Shown: positions 17,185 through 38,910 of the stretch, piece after piece
How the letters are laid out: each line of letters begins with the position of its first letter
Position numbering within the stretch: the first letter of the stretch is position 1
Origin: Mesoplasma melaleucae
GTDB lineage: Bacteria > Bacillota_I > Bacilli_A > Mycoplasmatales > Mycoplasmataceae
Direction: 5' to 3'
DNA length: 64,000 nt
Assembly (NCBI RefSeq): GCF_002804105.1
Contig: NZ_CP024964.1
Location: 372,001 to 436,000, forward strand
Made by a program: the position numbers and the translations under genes
Notes under the pieces: model-generated
Database searches by the model: none
What the model saw: the letters and a program-made list of their open reading frames with translations, nothing else
Told to the model about the DNA's origin: nothing

Positions 17185-18319
17185 ATGAGTAATGTTATTC
17201 ACTTTGGTGCAGGTAATATTGGAAGATGATTTATAGCTCCTATATTGCTAAAAAATAAACAAATAAAAGAAGTTAAATTTTTAGATGTTAATAAAAAAAG
17301 TTGATTAAAAAAAAGTTGATTAAAAAGTTGATTCTTTAAATAAAGAAAAAAAATATGTTCTTTCTGAAATGAGAAATGAATTGGTAAAATTGAATGTAAC
17401 TAATATAAGTGCTTTAACATTAAAAGAAATAAAAACTGATGTGTCTTTTAAAAAGTTTTTAAAAGACACATTTTTAATTACCACATCAATAGGTAAAAAT
17501 AATTTAAAATTTATTATTGATGATTTAAAGTTTATTATTGATCAAATAGGTGAAAAACAAAAAATTATTATTTTATGTTGTTAAAATGGTAATAGGATAT
17601 CAAGATTTTTTAAAAATTAATTTTTAAAAAAAATATAATATACTTTTGAATATTACATTCGTTGACTGTATAGTTGATAGAATTGTTCCTATTCAATTTA
17701 ATGATAGTTTAGATATAATGGTTAAAAGTTATTAATCATGAATAATTGATCAGATACAATGACCTTCTGAAATTCAAAAAATTTAAAATATTGCTTATTC
17801 AGATAATATAGATTTTGAAATTTATAAAAAAAATGCCTATGCTTTATGGTGTTCATACTTACTTAGGTGATTTAGATATAAAATAGATAAGTTTTTAATA
17901 CCTACTTTGCAAGAAGCTTTGAAGGATGAACAAACTAAAAAATATTTAGCAGATTTAATGAGTAATTAGATTGAAATTATTTCAGTTAAATTTAATTATG
18001 ATAAAACAAAATTAATGGAATATGGGCAAAGCATTATTAGTCGATTTAATAATGAAAATATTTGTGATGAGTTATATAGAATCACAAGAAATCCTATTAC
18101 AAAATTGCAAAAAAATGAAAGAATATTGGATCCATTATTATATTCATTTGATAATAATATTGAAGCTAATGCGTTGGTGGTAGCCTTAAACGGTCTAAAC
18201 TACTTTTATTAAAGTGATAATGAAGCTTTAGAGTTGAAGAAAATGCTCAAAACTTTAATGGTATTGCAAAAAATAATAACGTTGTAAAAAACTTATCAGA
18301 AAATGAAAAAAAGTTTTAG
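17185..18319 (+). pseudogene. mtlD: Mannitol-1-phosphate 5-dehydrogenase, heavily decayed
   Basis: The Rossmann start is clear (SNVIHFGAGNIGRWFIAP). Later segments in shifted frames match MtlD: DTFLITTSIGKNNLKFIIDD, FVDCIVDRIVPIQF, KFLIPTLQEALKDEQTKKYL and ITRNPITKLQKNERILDPLL, followed by EANALVVALNGLNYFY. Many stops and shifts separate them. A short tandem repeat near 17293-17333 has duplicated the codons for KKSWL just before the first stop. The enzyme would have converted mannitol-1-phosphate to fructose-6-phosphate. It closes the dead hexitol region. Confidence 0.87.
17293..17333 (+). repeat. Three-copy short tandem repeat inside mtlD
   Basis: AGTTGATT recurs at 17299, 17314 and 17326, embedded in A-rich units of 15 and 12 bases. 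In frame it would encode KKSWLKKSWLKSWF, followed by TAA. It looks like slippage expansion in a gene no longer under selection. Confidence 0.7.
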
Positions 18320-30697: not shown

Positions 30698-31411
30698 ATG
30701 TTTAGATATTTTGTAGAGATTAAAGAAGATAATACTTTTATTATTAATAATAGTGATGTTCATCATATTAAAAATGTTGTTAAGTTAAAAAATAATGAAA
30801 TTATTGAATGTGTTTATCAACAAGCAGTTTATCAAACTAAGATTATTGATTTAACAATTGATGATCAAGTAGTTGTCGAAATTATTAATAAACTTGAAAC
30901 TACAACAAGTAAAGTTAAAAAAGTGTTAATTGCTGGAGTATTACGTGAACAAAAATGAGATTACTTGTTACAAAAATCAACTGAACTAGGAGTTGATGAA
31001 ATTATTCCTGTAATCTTTAAACGTAATGTTGTTAAAATTGATGCTAAAAAGGTTAATCAAAAACTACAAAGATGACAAGCAATTTGTGATACTGCTACTA
31101 AACAATCAAAAAGAACAACTATTCCTGTTGTTAATAATTTAATTACTAACTTAAAAGATTTAACTAATAGTTTATGTAATTTAAATCTTGTAGCATGAGA
31201 AGAAGAAAAAGAAATTGAACTTAAAACATATTTAACACAAAACTTTAACTCAATTAGTTTTGTTATTGGTTGTGAAGGTGGAATTGATGCTAGTGAGATT
31301 AAGATTCTGCATGAAATAGGTTTTAGAAATGTAAGTTTAGGAAGTAATATACTAAGAGCTGAAACTGCTCCAACCTATATATTAAGTAGTTTAATTTATG
31401 AAAAAATGTAA
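30698..31411 (+). CDS. rsmE: 16S rRNA (uracil(1498)-N(3))-methyltransferase RsmE
   Basis: A 237-residue SPOUT methyltransferase that modifies U1498 of 16S rRNA. The ATG at 30698 follows AGAGG; an in-frame ATG 39 bases earlier lacks a ribosome binding site and lies next to the terminator. The N-terminal PUA-like part contains HHIKNVVKLKNNEIIE. The knotted SAM-binding C-terminus shows VIGCEGGIDASEIKILHEIG and VSLGSNILRAETAPTYIL, the family hallmark. TGA Trp codons are present. It stands alone between the HU remnant and a small RNA-like element. Confidence 0.93.
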
Positions 31412-31442: not shown

Positions 31443-31448
31443 TATAAT
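31443..31448 (+). promoter_or_regulatory. -10 element upstream of the candidate small RNA
   Basis: TATAAT lies seven bases before the first base of a long hairpin. No convincing -35 is seen at the usual distance. Confidence 0.45.
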
Positions 31449-31454
31449 TATTAC

Positions 31455-31529
31455 GTGTCTGGCACCGCCTTTCCTTAATTATTAATTATATTTTAGCCAG
31501 ACACATCACCCTAACCGGTGATTTTTTTT
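31455..31529 (+). ncRNA. Candidate small structured RNA (about 75 nt) with terminator
   Basis: GTGTCTGGC (31455-31463) pairs perfectly with GCCAGACAC (31496-31504) across a 32-base AT-rich loop. Immediately after comes ATCACC-CTAACC-GGTGAT and seven T, an intrinsic terminator. CACCG at 31463-31467, in the loop of the first hairpin, is complementary to CGGTG at 31516-31520 in the terminator, so a pseudoknot or a terminator/antiterminator switch is possible. It starts seven bases after TATAAT. There is no ORF inside. Its GC content stands out from the surroundings. Confidence 0.5.
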
Positions 31530-31589: not shown

Positions 31590-34582
31590 ATGAAGGATAA
31601 ATTATTACAAGATTTACTACTAAATGTAGAAAATATTAATAACTTTGAATTGAAAGAACAGGCAAAAAATAAAAACAACAAATGACTTATAAATCAATTT
31701 CAAAATATCTTGGAAAAGAAAATAAGTTCATTTAATTCATTTGAAGAAAAAATTGATTTCATTAATGTTTTATTAACAAATGAGAAAAAATTCACAAAAT
31801 TCACAAATTTAAATAAATTTGGTAATAACATAATTAATAGTTTAAGCCTTAACGAATTAGTTGTATCTTTAAATGAATTTATTGAAGTAGAATTTTTAAA
31901 TGCAAACATAGCATTAGTTATATCACCGTTTATTAGTTCTTTCATGGTAAATAAATTAAGAAATTGATTAACAAATAATAAAAATTTAAAAGTTAAAATA
32001 TTAACTACAACATTTGATGGATCATCAAGGTATCTTTCTCTAGAAACATTAGTCATTTGCAAAAAGATTTTAAAGAAAGAGTAGAAGTTAGAATTAAAAA
32101 TTCGTTTAAAAATAATGGCTCAAGAATTCATATGAAAGCATATTGTTTTTTAAGAGAAGGCGGTTTTAGTAATTTGTATATTGGTTCAAATAACTTTACA
32201 AGAACTGGAATAATGATAGGAAATGAATATTCAATTAAAATTAATGAGTTTAGAGAAAAAGAAATATTTAATAACTTTATTTTAGAGTTCAATAACCTAT
32301 GAAAGCAGGATTTAATTGAAATAACTGATTCTGAAATCATTAATAAAATGATTTTGTCTCAAATTTTTATTGATGAAATTAATAGGCAAAAAGAAAAAGA
32401 ACAATTTGAAATAATTAATAATTTATCCAAAAATAAGGATATATTTGAATTATTTGATTACCAAAAAGAAGTTATTAACAGGATTAATCAAAGAGAAAAA
32501 GATGGAATAAATAAACATTTAATAGTAATGGCAACTGATACGGGAAAAACTTTAACAATTGCTAAATATTTTGAAGAATTATTTTATAAAACAAATAAAC
32601 CTTTAAAAATTTTATTTTTAGCTCATCAAAAAGAAATTCTAGAGCAAGGTATAACAACTTTTGAAAAAATTATTACAGGTTTTAAAAGTGAAGTTTGCGA
32701 TTTTTATGATCAAAGAAATAAAATAGAAGATTTTGAATCAAATAGTTATATTTTTGCAACTTTTCAAAGTTTATCTAAAAATTTAAAATTTATACAAGAA
32801 ATTAAATTTGATTTAGTTATTTTAGATGAAGTACATCACATTCAAGCTAAAAATTATAAAAAAGTATTTGATTTAGTTTCTAAAAATTCAAAAACATTAA
32901 TTGGATTAACGGCAACACCAGAAAGAACAGATGGAATAGATATCAATAAATACTTTAATTATGAATACGCATATGAATTAAGTTTATATAATGCATTATC
33001 AAACGATTTACTTGCTCCATTTGATTATTATTTTATTCAAGATAAAACAGTTGACTTAACAGGAATAGAATTAAATAAAAGTGAAAAATTATGAAAAATA
33101 TTAAGTTCACAACAAAGAAATAAATTTATTTTGGAAAACATAGAAAAAATGATTGGATTAAATAATCGTGATACATCGACTGTGCTATTTTGTTCATCAA
33201 TTGAACACGCAAATAAATTAAAAAAATTTCTTTGTGAAAATAATTTAAGATGTGAAGTATTAACAAGTGAAAATAATAGTAAAGAAAGAGAAAATTTAAT
33301 TTAAAGATTCAAAAATAAAGAAATAAATTATTTATGTGTCAAAGATATTTTAAATGAAAGTGTTGATGTACCTAACATAGACAGAATAATATTTTTAACA
33401 CCTACTAATTCATTATTAATTTATTTACAACAATTAGGACGAGGCTTAAGAAAAACACCGGATAAAAAATTACAAATTTATGATTTTGTAAATAACGTTG
33501 ACCTATATGTTAATAAGCAATATGATCCGTTCCTATTATATAAAGCATTTAAAAAAGAAAATAATTTTAAAATCAGCGAATTAATGAGTAAAAATTTTAA
33601 AATAGGTTCATTTTTGCCAAATGGATCTGAAATACATATAGACTATTTAACTCGAAATGATTTAATTGAAAAAATTAGAAAATATGAGTCGAATAAAAAA
33701 ATTAACAATATAATTAATGAATATTCTAGTGAAATTTCATATGAAAATTATAAAAAAATGTTTTTTGAGAATCAAATGAGAGATGATTTTACACCATTTA
33801 AAATTTACGCTAAAAGTAAAACATTTATAAAAGACAATTTAAAATTTGTAATTATTTTAGCAAGAATGTCAATAAATAATAACAAAAACGTTATAAAGCG
33901 ATGAATTGAAATAGTAAAATCAAGAAAAATAAATTTAAATATGATTGAAGACAAATTATTTATAGCTAATTTTTGTAATAATAAAATAACAATTAACAAT
34001 AAAGAATTTGAAAAAAATCTTTTAAAAATATTGAGATTTTATAAAAACCAATGTAACTATCTTTGAAGAACTGCTGTATTTATTTCAGTATAAAGTTGAA
34101 GTTGAAGAGTTAATTGAAAATAATGATGTTGAAAGAAATCATTAGAAATTGAAAATTTACGAAACATGTACGTAACTTATGACCAAATTTATGTTCTTTT
34201 AAACAATGGTATAGTTGAAAATAAATTTAAAAAAAACTCATCTGTTCAAGGTATTTTTGAAGTATCTAAATTTAAATATGCAATATCTGCTTCTTCATTA
34301 ACTAAAGAAAGAGAACATAAGCATACTAACTATTTTTCTAATAAGGATGAGCTATTAAGTTGAGAATCACCTGATTGTTGAAAATATAGTGATAATGAAA
34401 AACTCGATTTAATCAAAAATAAATATTATGTTTTTTATCAATCAGATGAAACTGTTGAACTATTTGATAATACTATTAGAAAATACATAGGTAATATAAA
34501 AAAAATTGAACAAAGAGAATCAATAAAAAATAACAAAGAAAACAAAGAAAATAAGATTAAATATAAACTTAAAATTTCATAA
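31590..34582 (+). pseudogene. PLD-like / SF2 helicase / DUF3427 protein, decayed copy
   Basis: Reconstructed order matches the intact gene at 50995. A PLD-like N-terminus (SRIHMKAYCFL, LYIGSNNFTRTGIM) follows a frameshift near 32040. The helicase core has ELFDYQKEVINRI, LVILDEVHHI, LIGLTATPERTDGID and YLQQLGRGLRKTPDKK, and the C-terminal DUF3427-like part ends with YVTYDQIYVLLNN and ELLSWESPDCWKY. Walker A reads MATDTGKT instead of MATGTGKT. A TAA interrupts the second RecA domain at 33301, and a frameshift plus stops lie near 34080-34150. With these lesions a functional product is not expected. Confidence 0.87.
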
Positions 34583-34640
34583 AGTTATAGCGTTCTATTA
34601 CAAAAAAATAAAAAAATAAAAAAATAAAATCTTTCTTAGG

Positions 34641-35674
34641 TGGAAAATTTTTGAGACATTTTCTGGAATTGGAGCTCAACATAAAGCTCTTGAAATCTTA
34701 AAAAATAAGATTCTTGATTATGAAATAGTGGCTACAAGTGAGTGAGATATTTGAGCTAACATATCTTATAATGCAGTTAATCACAATAATTTTAATATTG
34801 CACTAAATTTAACTAATGAAGAAATAGATTCATTTTTGTTAAAATTTACGCATTCAAACGATTCCAAAAGTCCAATGACGAAAGAACAAGTTTTAAAATT
34901 GCCTCGCTTAGTTAAGGAAATTTGTATAGTTCTATAGGTTACTACACGCAAACTTATGTTTTAGAAGCAAATAAATATGGAACACCGCAAAATAGAAAAA
35001 GAGTTTTTGCATTTAGTGTTAGAAAAAATATATCTAAAAATTTTAAAGACACTTTTTAAACAAGCAATGGTTCAATCATAAAAGAAACGAATGCTCCAGT
35101 TGACATAAGCAATCAAATTAAGATCAAAAAAAATATATATGAAATTCTTAAAAAAGATTAAAGTATTGTAAAATATAAAGAAGAAGCAAGTAAGGCTACA
35201 CCTAATAGAACAAAAAGCAGAAAAAAATGTTTGAAAATAATAAAATGCTTTCGACAAAAGTGCAAACTAACATAAAAAAGCATAAAAATAATGCATTTAC
35301 TAAAGACGACAATATATATAGCTTGTTTCTTCAAAAATTACTACGAAGCAACATAGAGATCCAAATGCAGGAGTCATAAATTTAAAAGGAAAAATTTTGG
35401 AAGATAAATTTAATTATAAGATGAATATAAAAAAAGCGATTTTAGACTTTTAACACCAAGAGAATGTTTTTTATTAATGAGCTTTGAAGAAAATGACTTT
35501 CAAAAAGTTCTTAACGTTTCATATGAAATAAATTTATATCATATGAAAAGAAATAAATACTTAGGCGATGCTGTTTTATATAGGCAAAGCGGTAACAGTA
35601 TAGTTGTTAATGTGTTAGTTGCAATATTTAATAAAATAGCAGAAATTGAAGGGAAATTGAAAAATGAAAAGTAG
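34641..35674 (+). pseudogene. DNA (cytosine-5) methyltransferase, internally deleted
   Basis: The N-terminal SAM-binding motif I is present as IFETFSGIGAQHKALEIL, and the C-terminal motifs appear after several breaks: YGTPQNRKRVFAFSV (motif VIII region), RLLTPRECFLLMSFEENDFQ and YRQSGNSIVVNVLVAIFNK (motif X). The start codon is missing, and the part that should carry the catalytic PCQ loop (motif IV) is deleted around 34930. Five or more frame changes exist. It follows the dead helicase and presumably belonged to a type II-like modification system. The recognition site is unknown. Confidence 0.85.
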
Positions 35675-36307
35675 TGATTTTGAAAAAAACGTTAAAGAAC
35701 TATATTTTAAAATTTCTGGATTAGAATTTGAATTAACAAATTCTAAGTAATGAAAAATTAAAACTAGCATTAAGACTATGATAAAAAGTTTGTACAAAAT
35801 TAAAGGAAAATTTAATGAATTGAATTTTGAATATGATGAAAAGAGTAATAAGTATTTGATCAATGGAGATCTAAATGGCATTGTAGATAGTACATTTAGA
35901 CAATACTTTATAATAGGTTATATATTAGGTGTTTTTGAAATTGATAAAGAAGTCGCTTTTGCTGAGTCGTTTTATGATTATGCTCTTAAAAAAGAAAAAA
36001 TTTATTTTAACAAATGATTTTTGCGATAAAGCGAATTATCAAATGTTTTTATTAGATATAAACTTATTTAAAAGAATCAAAGAAGCTCTTATGTGAGTTA
36101 CTCCTGACTCATTTATTTAGGAGCCTACAGTAAAATTTATTTTTACATTATGTACTTAAGCAGTTGCGTTTAAAAGTAATTCACTTGAGTTAATGATTAA
36201 TTTTTTTAGATTCATACAAATAAAAGAAAAATACAAAAATTATTGGTGCAATTGATGAGTATAACTATCAAAAAGAAATAGCAGTTAAATTTGCTAATTT
36301 TATTTAA
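35664..36307 (+). pseudogene. Unknown protein next to the C5 methyltransferase, possible restriction enzyme
   Basis: Starts at an ATG overlapping the end of the methyltransferase frame. MKSSDFEKNVKELYFKISGL runs into TAA at 35748, continues in the same frame with KSLYKIKGKFNELNFEYDEK and RQYFIIGYILGVFEIDKEVA, and then breaks near 36017. Later fragments include ANYQMFLLDINLFKRIKEAL and IIGAIDEYNYQKEIAVKFAN. I recognise no nuclease motif. The position directly after a DNA methyltransferase suggests the cognate restriction enzyme, but this is context only. Confidence 0.5.
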
Positions 36308-36317
36308 AGGAGAAAAA

Positions 36318-38878
36318 ATGGAAATTAATTTATTTAAAAAATTTTATAATTATCTATCTTTGCAGGAATTATCATATTTAAAAATCATTGAGTCAAAAAT
36401 AAGAAGAGAAAAAGAGGATATAGCAAATAATATTTCAATTGAAATATCTAAAATATTGGAATCAAAATGAACAGGATTTTAGAGGCAAATGGAACATATT
36501 TAGCATCTTATGAAAAAACTTCAAAAGTAATTTTTGATAAAGTTTGTAATCTTTATTCAGAAGAGAAAAAACTTGAATCAGGCTTTATAAGAAATACTCA
36601 AATGTCTGAAATAATTTTTTCAACTTTTAATTATATTAGAAATTGAAGAAATGATGAAGTACATCCAAGTGAGTTAGGAATAAAAAGAAGTTTTACTGAT
36701 ACTATTCACTTAATTAAGTGTTTTGATTTAGTGTTATCTTTTTTAATTAATTTTTTGATGATACAAAATTTGTAATTGAAGAATTTGATGAGAACTTTCT
36801 TTTAACAATTTTAAATCATAGGAAACATTTTATAGACGAAATAGTGGATGAAAATAAAAAGACAGATATTGGATTTATAAAGCTTGGAAAAATAGATATA
36901 AGTTCATTTGTGCTTAATCCTGAAGTTAATTTTTTCATTACTTCTTATCAAAGAAAATATAGATAAGATTCAGAAACTTGTAAAGAATTAATAACTGGAA
37001 TATTGAATAAAACAAACAATATTAATGATGAGTATTTTGGAACCATTGCTGTAACCATTGAAGAAAATACAAGAAATAAAGATATTCGAACTGTAAGATT
37101 AATAGATGGTCAACAAAAAGTTACTACTTCGCTTATTATTTTTAGAGTGATTTTTGATTTATGAAAAGAAAAACAATTGAATTCTTATGAAGAAAATATT
37201 CTAGAAATGCCAAATGAATTACAAAAAACCTTCCTAAATGTAGGTTGTTATAATAAATATAAAAATATAACAGGGAATGAAGTTGAAAATAAGACTATTG
37301 ATTTTATTTTAAATGAGAATTTATCTTACAAAGAAAGAAACATAAGAATAATAAGTTTTAAAACAATTGGTAAATCTCAAGTAGCTAAGAATTACTCAAC
37401 AATTCATGATATGTTAGTATCGTTATCTCAAGAAGAATTAAGCTCTTTTTATGATAGATATGCATATAAATTTTTAATTTCTTGTCTCTATTTTAATAAA
37501 ACTCCAGCTGAAGAATCCAGCTGAAGAAATGGAAATATTTGAAACTTTAAATTCAAAAGGAACTGAATTAGATTCTTTTGATATGATTAAAAACTTTTTA
37601 TTTAATTTAGTTGATAAAGATATCTTTTTAGAAAAAGAAGCTAAAATAACAAAAATATTTAATGAATACATGAGTTTCGACGATTCAAAAATAGAACAAG
37701 AAAAAAAAGAAAAATTCAAGAAACGTTTTTATTTAGTTATTGTGAATATAAATTATTAAATTTTAAGCAATTAGATAATAATTTAAATAAAAACAAAAAA
37801 TCAATATTAAAACACTTTAAAAAAATATATGGAAATAAAAATAACATTGATGTTAATGAATTTAAAAAAATGTTTCTGAAATAGGTAAATACGTAGCTTT
37901 AACAAAAACATTTGAATCAAGAAATTATGAAAATAACACGTATGACTTATTGTTTCCACTAAGATATAACATTGCAAATATTGCGCATAAATATATATCA
38001 TTATTTATAATATTTTATATAATTGATATTTTTGCAAAAAGTAAATGAGATTCTTATAGTAAAACACTTGATTACAGTGATAAAACAGAATTAATGAAGA
38101 AAACACTATTTGAGTTTGAAAAATGAATTATTTCGTTACTACAAGTTTCAGAATCAGGTCAGTCATTAACAAAAATAATTTTAAGATTGTTTAGATTTTT
38201 AAATTTTTATGATACATCTAATTATGCTATACAAGAACAAATACCAAGTATGATAAGAAAATGACTGGCAATGAAAACAGAGGATTCATTTACATTTCAA
38301 AGCAAACAACAAAAAAACTATTACTTGAAAATATTGATTTAAAAATTCCAACAAGCGAAAACAAGCGAACAATTTTATAATTCTTTAATAAGCAAAAAAG
38401 TGCAGAATAAAAATATAGCGATGGTTTTATTGAAAAGGTTGAAAAGTAAATTAATTAATAATTGAGAAATTAAACGAGATAAAAATTCTTTGAAACATAT
38501 TATGCCAAAAACAATTAAAAAGACCAATTGAAATGACTTTTTAAAAAATGAAGAATGAGATTTAACTGAAAAAGATGTACTTGATAAACATGCTCAATAT
38601 ATTGATAAAATTGGAAATTATTTAATACTTGATAAAAACAAAGAAAATTACAAAGTATCAAACGGTAAATTTAATTTAAAAAGAATGGAATTTATAAAGT
38701 GAAATAATCCACTGTGTACATGATTTTTGATTTTAGTAACAATATAAATTTACTGACAACAGAAAAATTTGGTTTTGATGAAATTGATGAAAGATCAAAG
38801 GCTATTTCAAAAATAATAATTAAGAAATTTATTATAAAAACAATTAATAAACTTAGTGTATCTAAGTTTATTTGTTAA
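36318..38878 (+). pseudogene. HEPN-like + DUF262 + DUF1524 (GmrSD-type) protein, decayed
   Basis: AAAGGAG precedes the ATG. Fragments in order: a helical N-terminus (MEINLFKKFYNYLSLQELSY); a HEPN/DUF4145-like segment with FNYIRNWRNDEVHPSELG, containing an RNxxxH pattern; then the DUF262 N-terminus FITSYQRKYR-stop-DSETCKELI, with TAA replacing the usual Trp, and VRLIDGQQKVTTSLIIF, where DGQQ is the ParB-like nucleotide-binding motif; then MEIFETLNSKGTELDSFDMI; and finally the DUF1524 HNH nuclease LKHIMPKTIKKTNWNDF ... HAQYIDKIGNYLIL. At least six shifts or stops occur. Known relatives are type IV enzymes that cut modified DNA. Confidence 0.82.
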
Positions 38879-38910
38879 AATTAATAAGAAAATATTTTTA
38901 AAGGGGTCAA

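Follow-up and report, generated by a model that had tools for sequence, protein, structure and literature searches.

A candidate stand-alone small RNA gene downstream of rsmE, near-identical across Mesoplasma

Several trans-acting small RNAs of AT-rich, low-GC Gram-positives, including IsrR and RsaE of S. aureus and RoxS and FsrA of B. subtilis, are encoded by short intergenic genes with their own promoter and a Rho-independent terminator, and carry a C-rich stretch in a single-stranded loop. For the C-rich sRNAs of staphylococci, it has been argued that G-runs in AT-rich genomes are mostly Shine-Dalgarno sequences, so that C-rich loops find mRNAs (PMC9410917). Promoters mapped in Mesoplasma florum consist of a TAWAAT box without a clear -35 box, with transcription starting 6-7 nt downstream, and M. 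florum L1 also has unassigned intergenic start sites that lie directly upstream of terminators and give RNA-seq signals of ~50-75 bp (PMC7745072).

We analysed a 64,000-nucleotide stretch of the Mesoplasma melaleucae genome (the window) in which an earlier note had singled out positions 31443-31529 as a candidate small RNA or switch. We favor the first of these readings, and from the sequence evidence we place the probability that the element is a real, stand-alone and previously undescribed small RNA gene at roughly 0.93. Its candidate promoter is a TATAAT -10 box on the + strand (31443-31448), which is invariant in seven genomes although the surrounding DNA is divergent. The box had been placed seven bases before the first stem; the gap to G31455 is in fact six unpaired bases, a spacing that agrees with the 6-7 nt most often mapped in M. 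florum. Based on this promoter geometry (PMC7745072), the predicted +1 is G31455, with which the stem begins, and the U-tract together with the conserved -10 box predicts transcription on the + strand. The predicted 75-nt RNA (31455-31529, + strand), which is suggested by conservation and a stable fold, resembles the intergenic M. florum L1 signals in having a promoter directly before a terminator and a length in the 50-75-nt range.

The RNA would begin with a GC-rich stem (stem 1), whose 5' arm GTGTCTGGC (31455-31463) starts at the predicted +1 and whose 3' arm GCCAGACAC (31496-31504) is read directly from the sequence and the minimum free energy (MFE) fold. Its nine perfect pairs close a 32-nt loop (31464-31495) that is predicted to be single-stranded and is unpaired in the MFE structure, with ACCGCCTTTCC as a C/U-rich first part and an AT-rich remainder. 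Directly abutting the 3' arm is an intrinsic terminator (31505-31529, + strand), as the earlier note had described: a 6-bp hairpin at 31505-31522 with stem ATCACC/GGTGAT and loop CTAACC, followed by a T-run (U-run in the RNA) up to 31529, all invariant in the seven genomes. Within the 64 kb of the window, the perfect 9-bp stem, also recognized in the earlier note, is the sole inverted repeat of this type (perfect, at least 9 bp, at least 5 G/C, loop of at most 45), and no such repeat occurred in 30 first-order Markov sequences. Folding of the + strand RNA gave about -22 kcal/mol (-21.9 to -22.1), with z = -6.3 against dinucleotide shuffles and equal stability in 0 of 200. Terminator-like sites number four in 8 kb, including the element's own, against 0.5 expected. 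Apart from a short CACCG/CGGTG match considered below, the structured observation is well beyond chance.

Blastn against 60 genomes of the family recovered the element in 7 of 7 members of the genus, each time as a single copy with 94-98% nucleotide identity and directly downstream of rsmE; in the chromosome of M. florum L1 (G010) it lies at 348,699-348,773. This near-identity is the opposite of the lack of conservation that the earlier note had named as evidence against its proposal and, with the -10 box, the terminator and the single copy, it bears out the small RNA candidate. In a 75-column alignment of six genomes (the sequence of G012 is identical to that of G008), 72 of the 75 columns are invariant, including 30 of the 32 in the loop. 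The alignment shows a sharp block comprising TATAAT and the 75-nt unit; the DNA on both sides is scrambled, and the alignment collapses right after the terminator. Because fourfold-degenerate sites of the adjacent rsmE gene are only 51-59% identical, the 75-nt unit appears to be under very strong purifying selection. When ~396 kb of this genome was compared with two other species, nearly all other 75-mers matching at 70/75 or better in both fell in genes, rRNA, tRNA, tmRNA or RNase P RNA, and the element was one of very few non-coding exceptions. An unannotated segment elsewhere in the genome (L166, ~17816-17946; G000 337816-337946) is likewise conserved at 70/75 or better across species; read on the minus strand, its end is a T-box-like AGGATGGTACCGCG, and Rfam did not report it at gathering score. 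The genome also carries a 2'-deoxyguanosine riboswitch (RF01510) at 11504-11566 of L169.

Conservation is uniform along the element. The C-rich half of the loop is no more conserved than the AU-rich half or either stem, and all 15 base pairs (15/15) are without any variation in the genus alignment. Covariation is thus uninformative on the fold, since the paired columns never vary and no homologue outside the genus was detected: blastn, a degenerate pattern and a covariance model yielded no convincing one in 60 genomes of the family and 16 of sister genera. Weak matches outside the genus proved on inspection to be unrelated terminators, coding DNA or AT-rich chance matches. An exact-pattern scan of GTDB genomes, from which the element's own genome and near relatives were possibly left out, returned M. 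grammopterae (G011) only, and the same scan of a viral collection returned no match. In agreement with the earlier note, which could place the element in no known class, an Rfam search gave nothing at gathering score and nothing, riboswitch classes included, even at E<=5.

The left neighbour in 7 of 7 genus members is the orthologue of rsmE (30698-31411, + strand), encoding the 16S rRNA U1498 methyltransferase (Pfam PF04452, E=3.4e-47, and PF20260). This constancy, and the lack of any other terminator between the rsmE stop at 31411 and the element, would fit an element that is the 3' UTR of rsmE with its terminator, or an sRNA processed out of the rsmE transcript, in either case without a promoter of its own. 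We consider this unlikely, because a plain terminator needs neither an invariant 32-nt loop nor a second stem of 9 bp, and because the correctly spaced TATAAT has stayed invariant although the DNA separating it from rsmE has diverged. A leaderless mini-mRNA is a still weaker contender and, in our estimate, scarcely probable at all. Some leaderless transcripts have been reported in M. florum (PMC7745072), and a seven-codon frame, GUG UCU GGC ACC GCC UUU CCU UAA (31455-31478), which would encode a 7-residue peptide, begins exactly at the predicted +1. However, a frame of this length arises easily, and probably did arise, by chance, and its third codon positions are equally invariant, which points to constraint at the RNA level.

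To the right of the element, gene content is not constant. In the window, positions 31590-33304 (+ strand; Pfam PF04851, PF00270 and PF09565) hold variable cargo outside the RNA unit, namely a 164-aa frame without assigned identity and a ResIII/DEAD restriction-type helicase frame. A restriction-type helicase is also the right neighbour in M. grammopterae, whereas it is a C5 DNA methyltransferase in M. florum L1, an uncharacterised 349-aa protein followed by udk (uridine kinase) in G007, G008 and G009, and udk directly in G012. The slot directly after the RNA terminator is thus a variable cargo site. Between the RNA and udk (~38911), positions 31590-38900 of the window look like a decayed restriction or defence island, with the ResIII helicase, an NgoFVII-type PLD piece, many broken frames and a fragment that looks like the N-terminus of the C5-methyltransferase in G010. 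In G010 this slot carries an intact C5-methyltransferase and an 835-aa frame, and in G012 it is empty. Conservation of the element is therefore independent of its neighbours on the right, which vary across the seven genomes while the left side stays constant.

This changing context largely refutes a cis-acting riboswitch or attenuator, the other proposal of the earlier note. In that proposal, CACCG (31463-31467) and CGGTG (31516-31520) would form a pseudoknot or antiterminator, giving mutually exclusive folds. In its favour, both motifs are present and invariant, the complementarity is real, and a structured element ends in a terminator. On the other hand, complementarity of at least 5 nt to the terminator hairpin was reached in 7% of shuffled loops, so that the match is close to chance, and the alternative fold has -3.8 against -22.1 kcal/mol, about 18 kcal/mol worse. 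A cis-regulator would also be expected to keep its gene; here the downstream gene varies and the RNA carries a terminator of its own, which leaves such a regulator without a constant gene to control. We therefore rejected the pseudoknot and regard a switch as highly improbable. An intrinsic terminator of its own is instead what an independent intergenic sRNA gene should have, and the differing right-hand genes likewise favor a stand-alone sRNA gene over a riboswitch. The element would form a new sRNA family of an already known kind. Its locus is probably among the unassigned intergenic start sites or non-coding units of M. florum (PMC7745072, Dataset EV4); in the text of that study this RNA, its structure and its conservation go undescribed.

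As to how this sRNA would act, we consider trans-acting base pairing that regulates translation the most likely mode, with about an even chance of being correct, chiefly by analogy with the C-rich open loops of AT-rich Gram-positives, as argued for staphylococci (PMC9410917). A transcript of ~75 nt would be made from the TATAAT promoter, starting at about G31455 and ending at its own terminator, and the 9-bp stem would present the 32-nt open loop. The C/U-rich loop half CACCGCCUUUCCUU would then pair with purine-rich ribosome-binding sites in a restricted group of mRNAs, whose translation would fall; C-rich-loop sRNAs act in this way in other AT-rich low-GC Gram-positives. Consistent with this model, the single-stranded C-rich segment typical of such sRNAs is present as CACCGCCUUUCC at the loop start, made up of C31463, which is paired atop stem 1 in the MFE structure, and the first, unpaired bases of the loop; the loop is the element's only open, G-pairing, C-rich stretch. 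The element differs from IsrR, RsaE, RoxS and FsrA in having a single C/U-rich segment where they have several C-runs, and shares no detected sequence relation with them (no Rfam match).

Evidence for targets was mixed. Among 49 genes of the window, 5 of 300 dinucleotide shuffles bound start regions as well as the native loop did, but this preference was not reproduced with 231 M. florum genes, where 26 of 60 shuffled loops bound start regions equally well; the larger test does not support a generic anti-Shine-Dalgarno action. In the larger scan, a G13 to U change would improve binding to ribosome-binding sites, which argues against a loop tuned for generic anti-Shine-Dalgarno pairing. With a genome-scale preference for ribosome-binding sites that did not exceed shuffled loops, and with targets that are putative, the element differs from the four described sRNAs. 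Energy-scored target scans of stretches covering about half of three genomes gave best conserved targets that were not above shuffles (16-74 of 160). The upstream regions of a NusB-like gene and folA, which came out best, fell inside the shuffle null, and the folA site probably overlaps the thyA coding sequence. Across the seven genomes, matches to a degenerate 14-mer complementary to the C-rich half of the loop were no more frequent than control counts. A perfect complement of the RNA loop, TAAGGAAAGGCGGTG, occurs in another genus (G056:C1:588092-588112; L066 1501-1521), in the start region of the ftsA-like gene that follows mraZ-rsmH, probably by chance. We rejected this antisense lead, as that genus lacks the RNA and Mesoplasma has no comparable site.

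The main rival of the pairing mechanism, although a doubtful one, is a structural sRNA that a protein or the ribosome would recognise by its whole 75-nt shape. An RNA bound by a protein would be expected to show such uniform invariance of stem, loop and terminator, which exceeds the needs of a base-pairing seed, and the failure of the target scans points the same way. In addition, CACCGCCUUUCC is identical at 10 of 12 positions to the 3' tail of 16S rRNA, CACCUCCUUUCU, a resemblance equalled in 29 of 1500 shuffles and found nowhere else on the + strand of the window. One example would be an RNA that imitates the 16S 3' end and thereby captures a factor that reads this tail. Against this reading, the likeness was a post hoc observation, nothing points to a protein partner, and C-rich loops are common in pairing sRNAs. 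The likeness to the anti-Shine-Dalgarno tail itself suggests pairing with ribosome-binding sites, but the element has G for the central U, which weakens pairing to GGAGG, and its copy is embedded in a hairpin loop. We regard it as very unlikely that the loop, copying the 16S tail with one altered core base, makes the RNA a ribosome mimic that would compete with the ribosomal 3' end for a binding or assembly factor or for special start sites.

Few regulators are known in M. florum, a near-minimal cell that serves as a model in synthetic genomics. If the ribosome mimic were true, a global translation regulator would have evolved inside one near-minimal bacterial lineage. Whatever its action, the near-constancy of a 75-nt non-coding gene across the genus, next to synonymous sites that have for the most part diverged, strongly hints at an important RNA. 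The element is absent from Rfam, and M. florum transcriptome data exist to test it. Genome-reduction designs centred on genes could delete such an RNA unnoticed.
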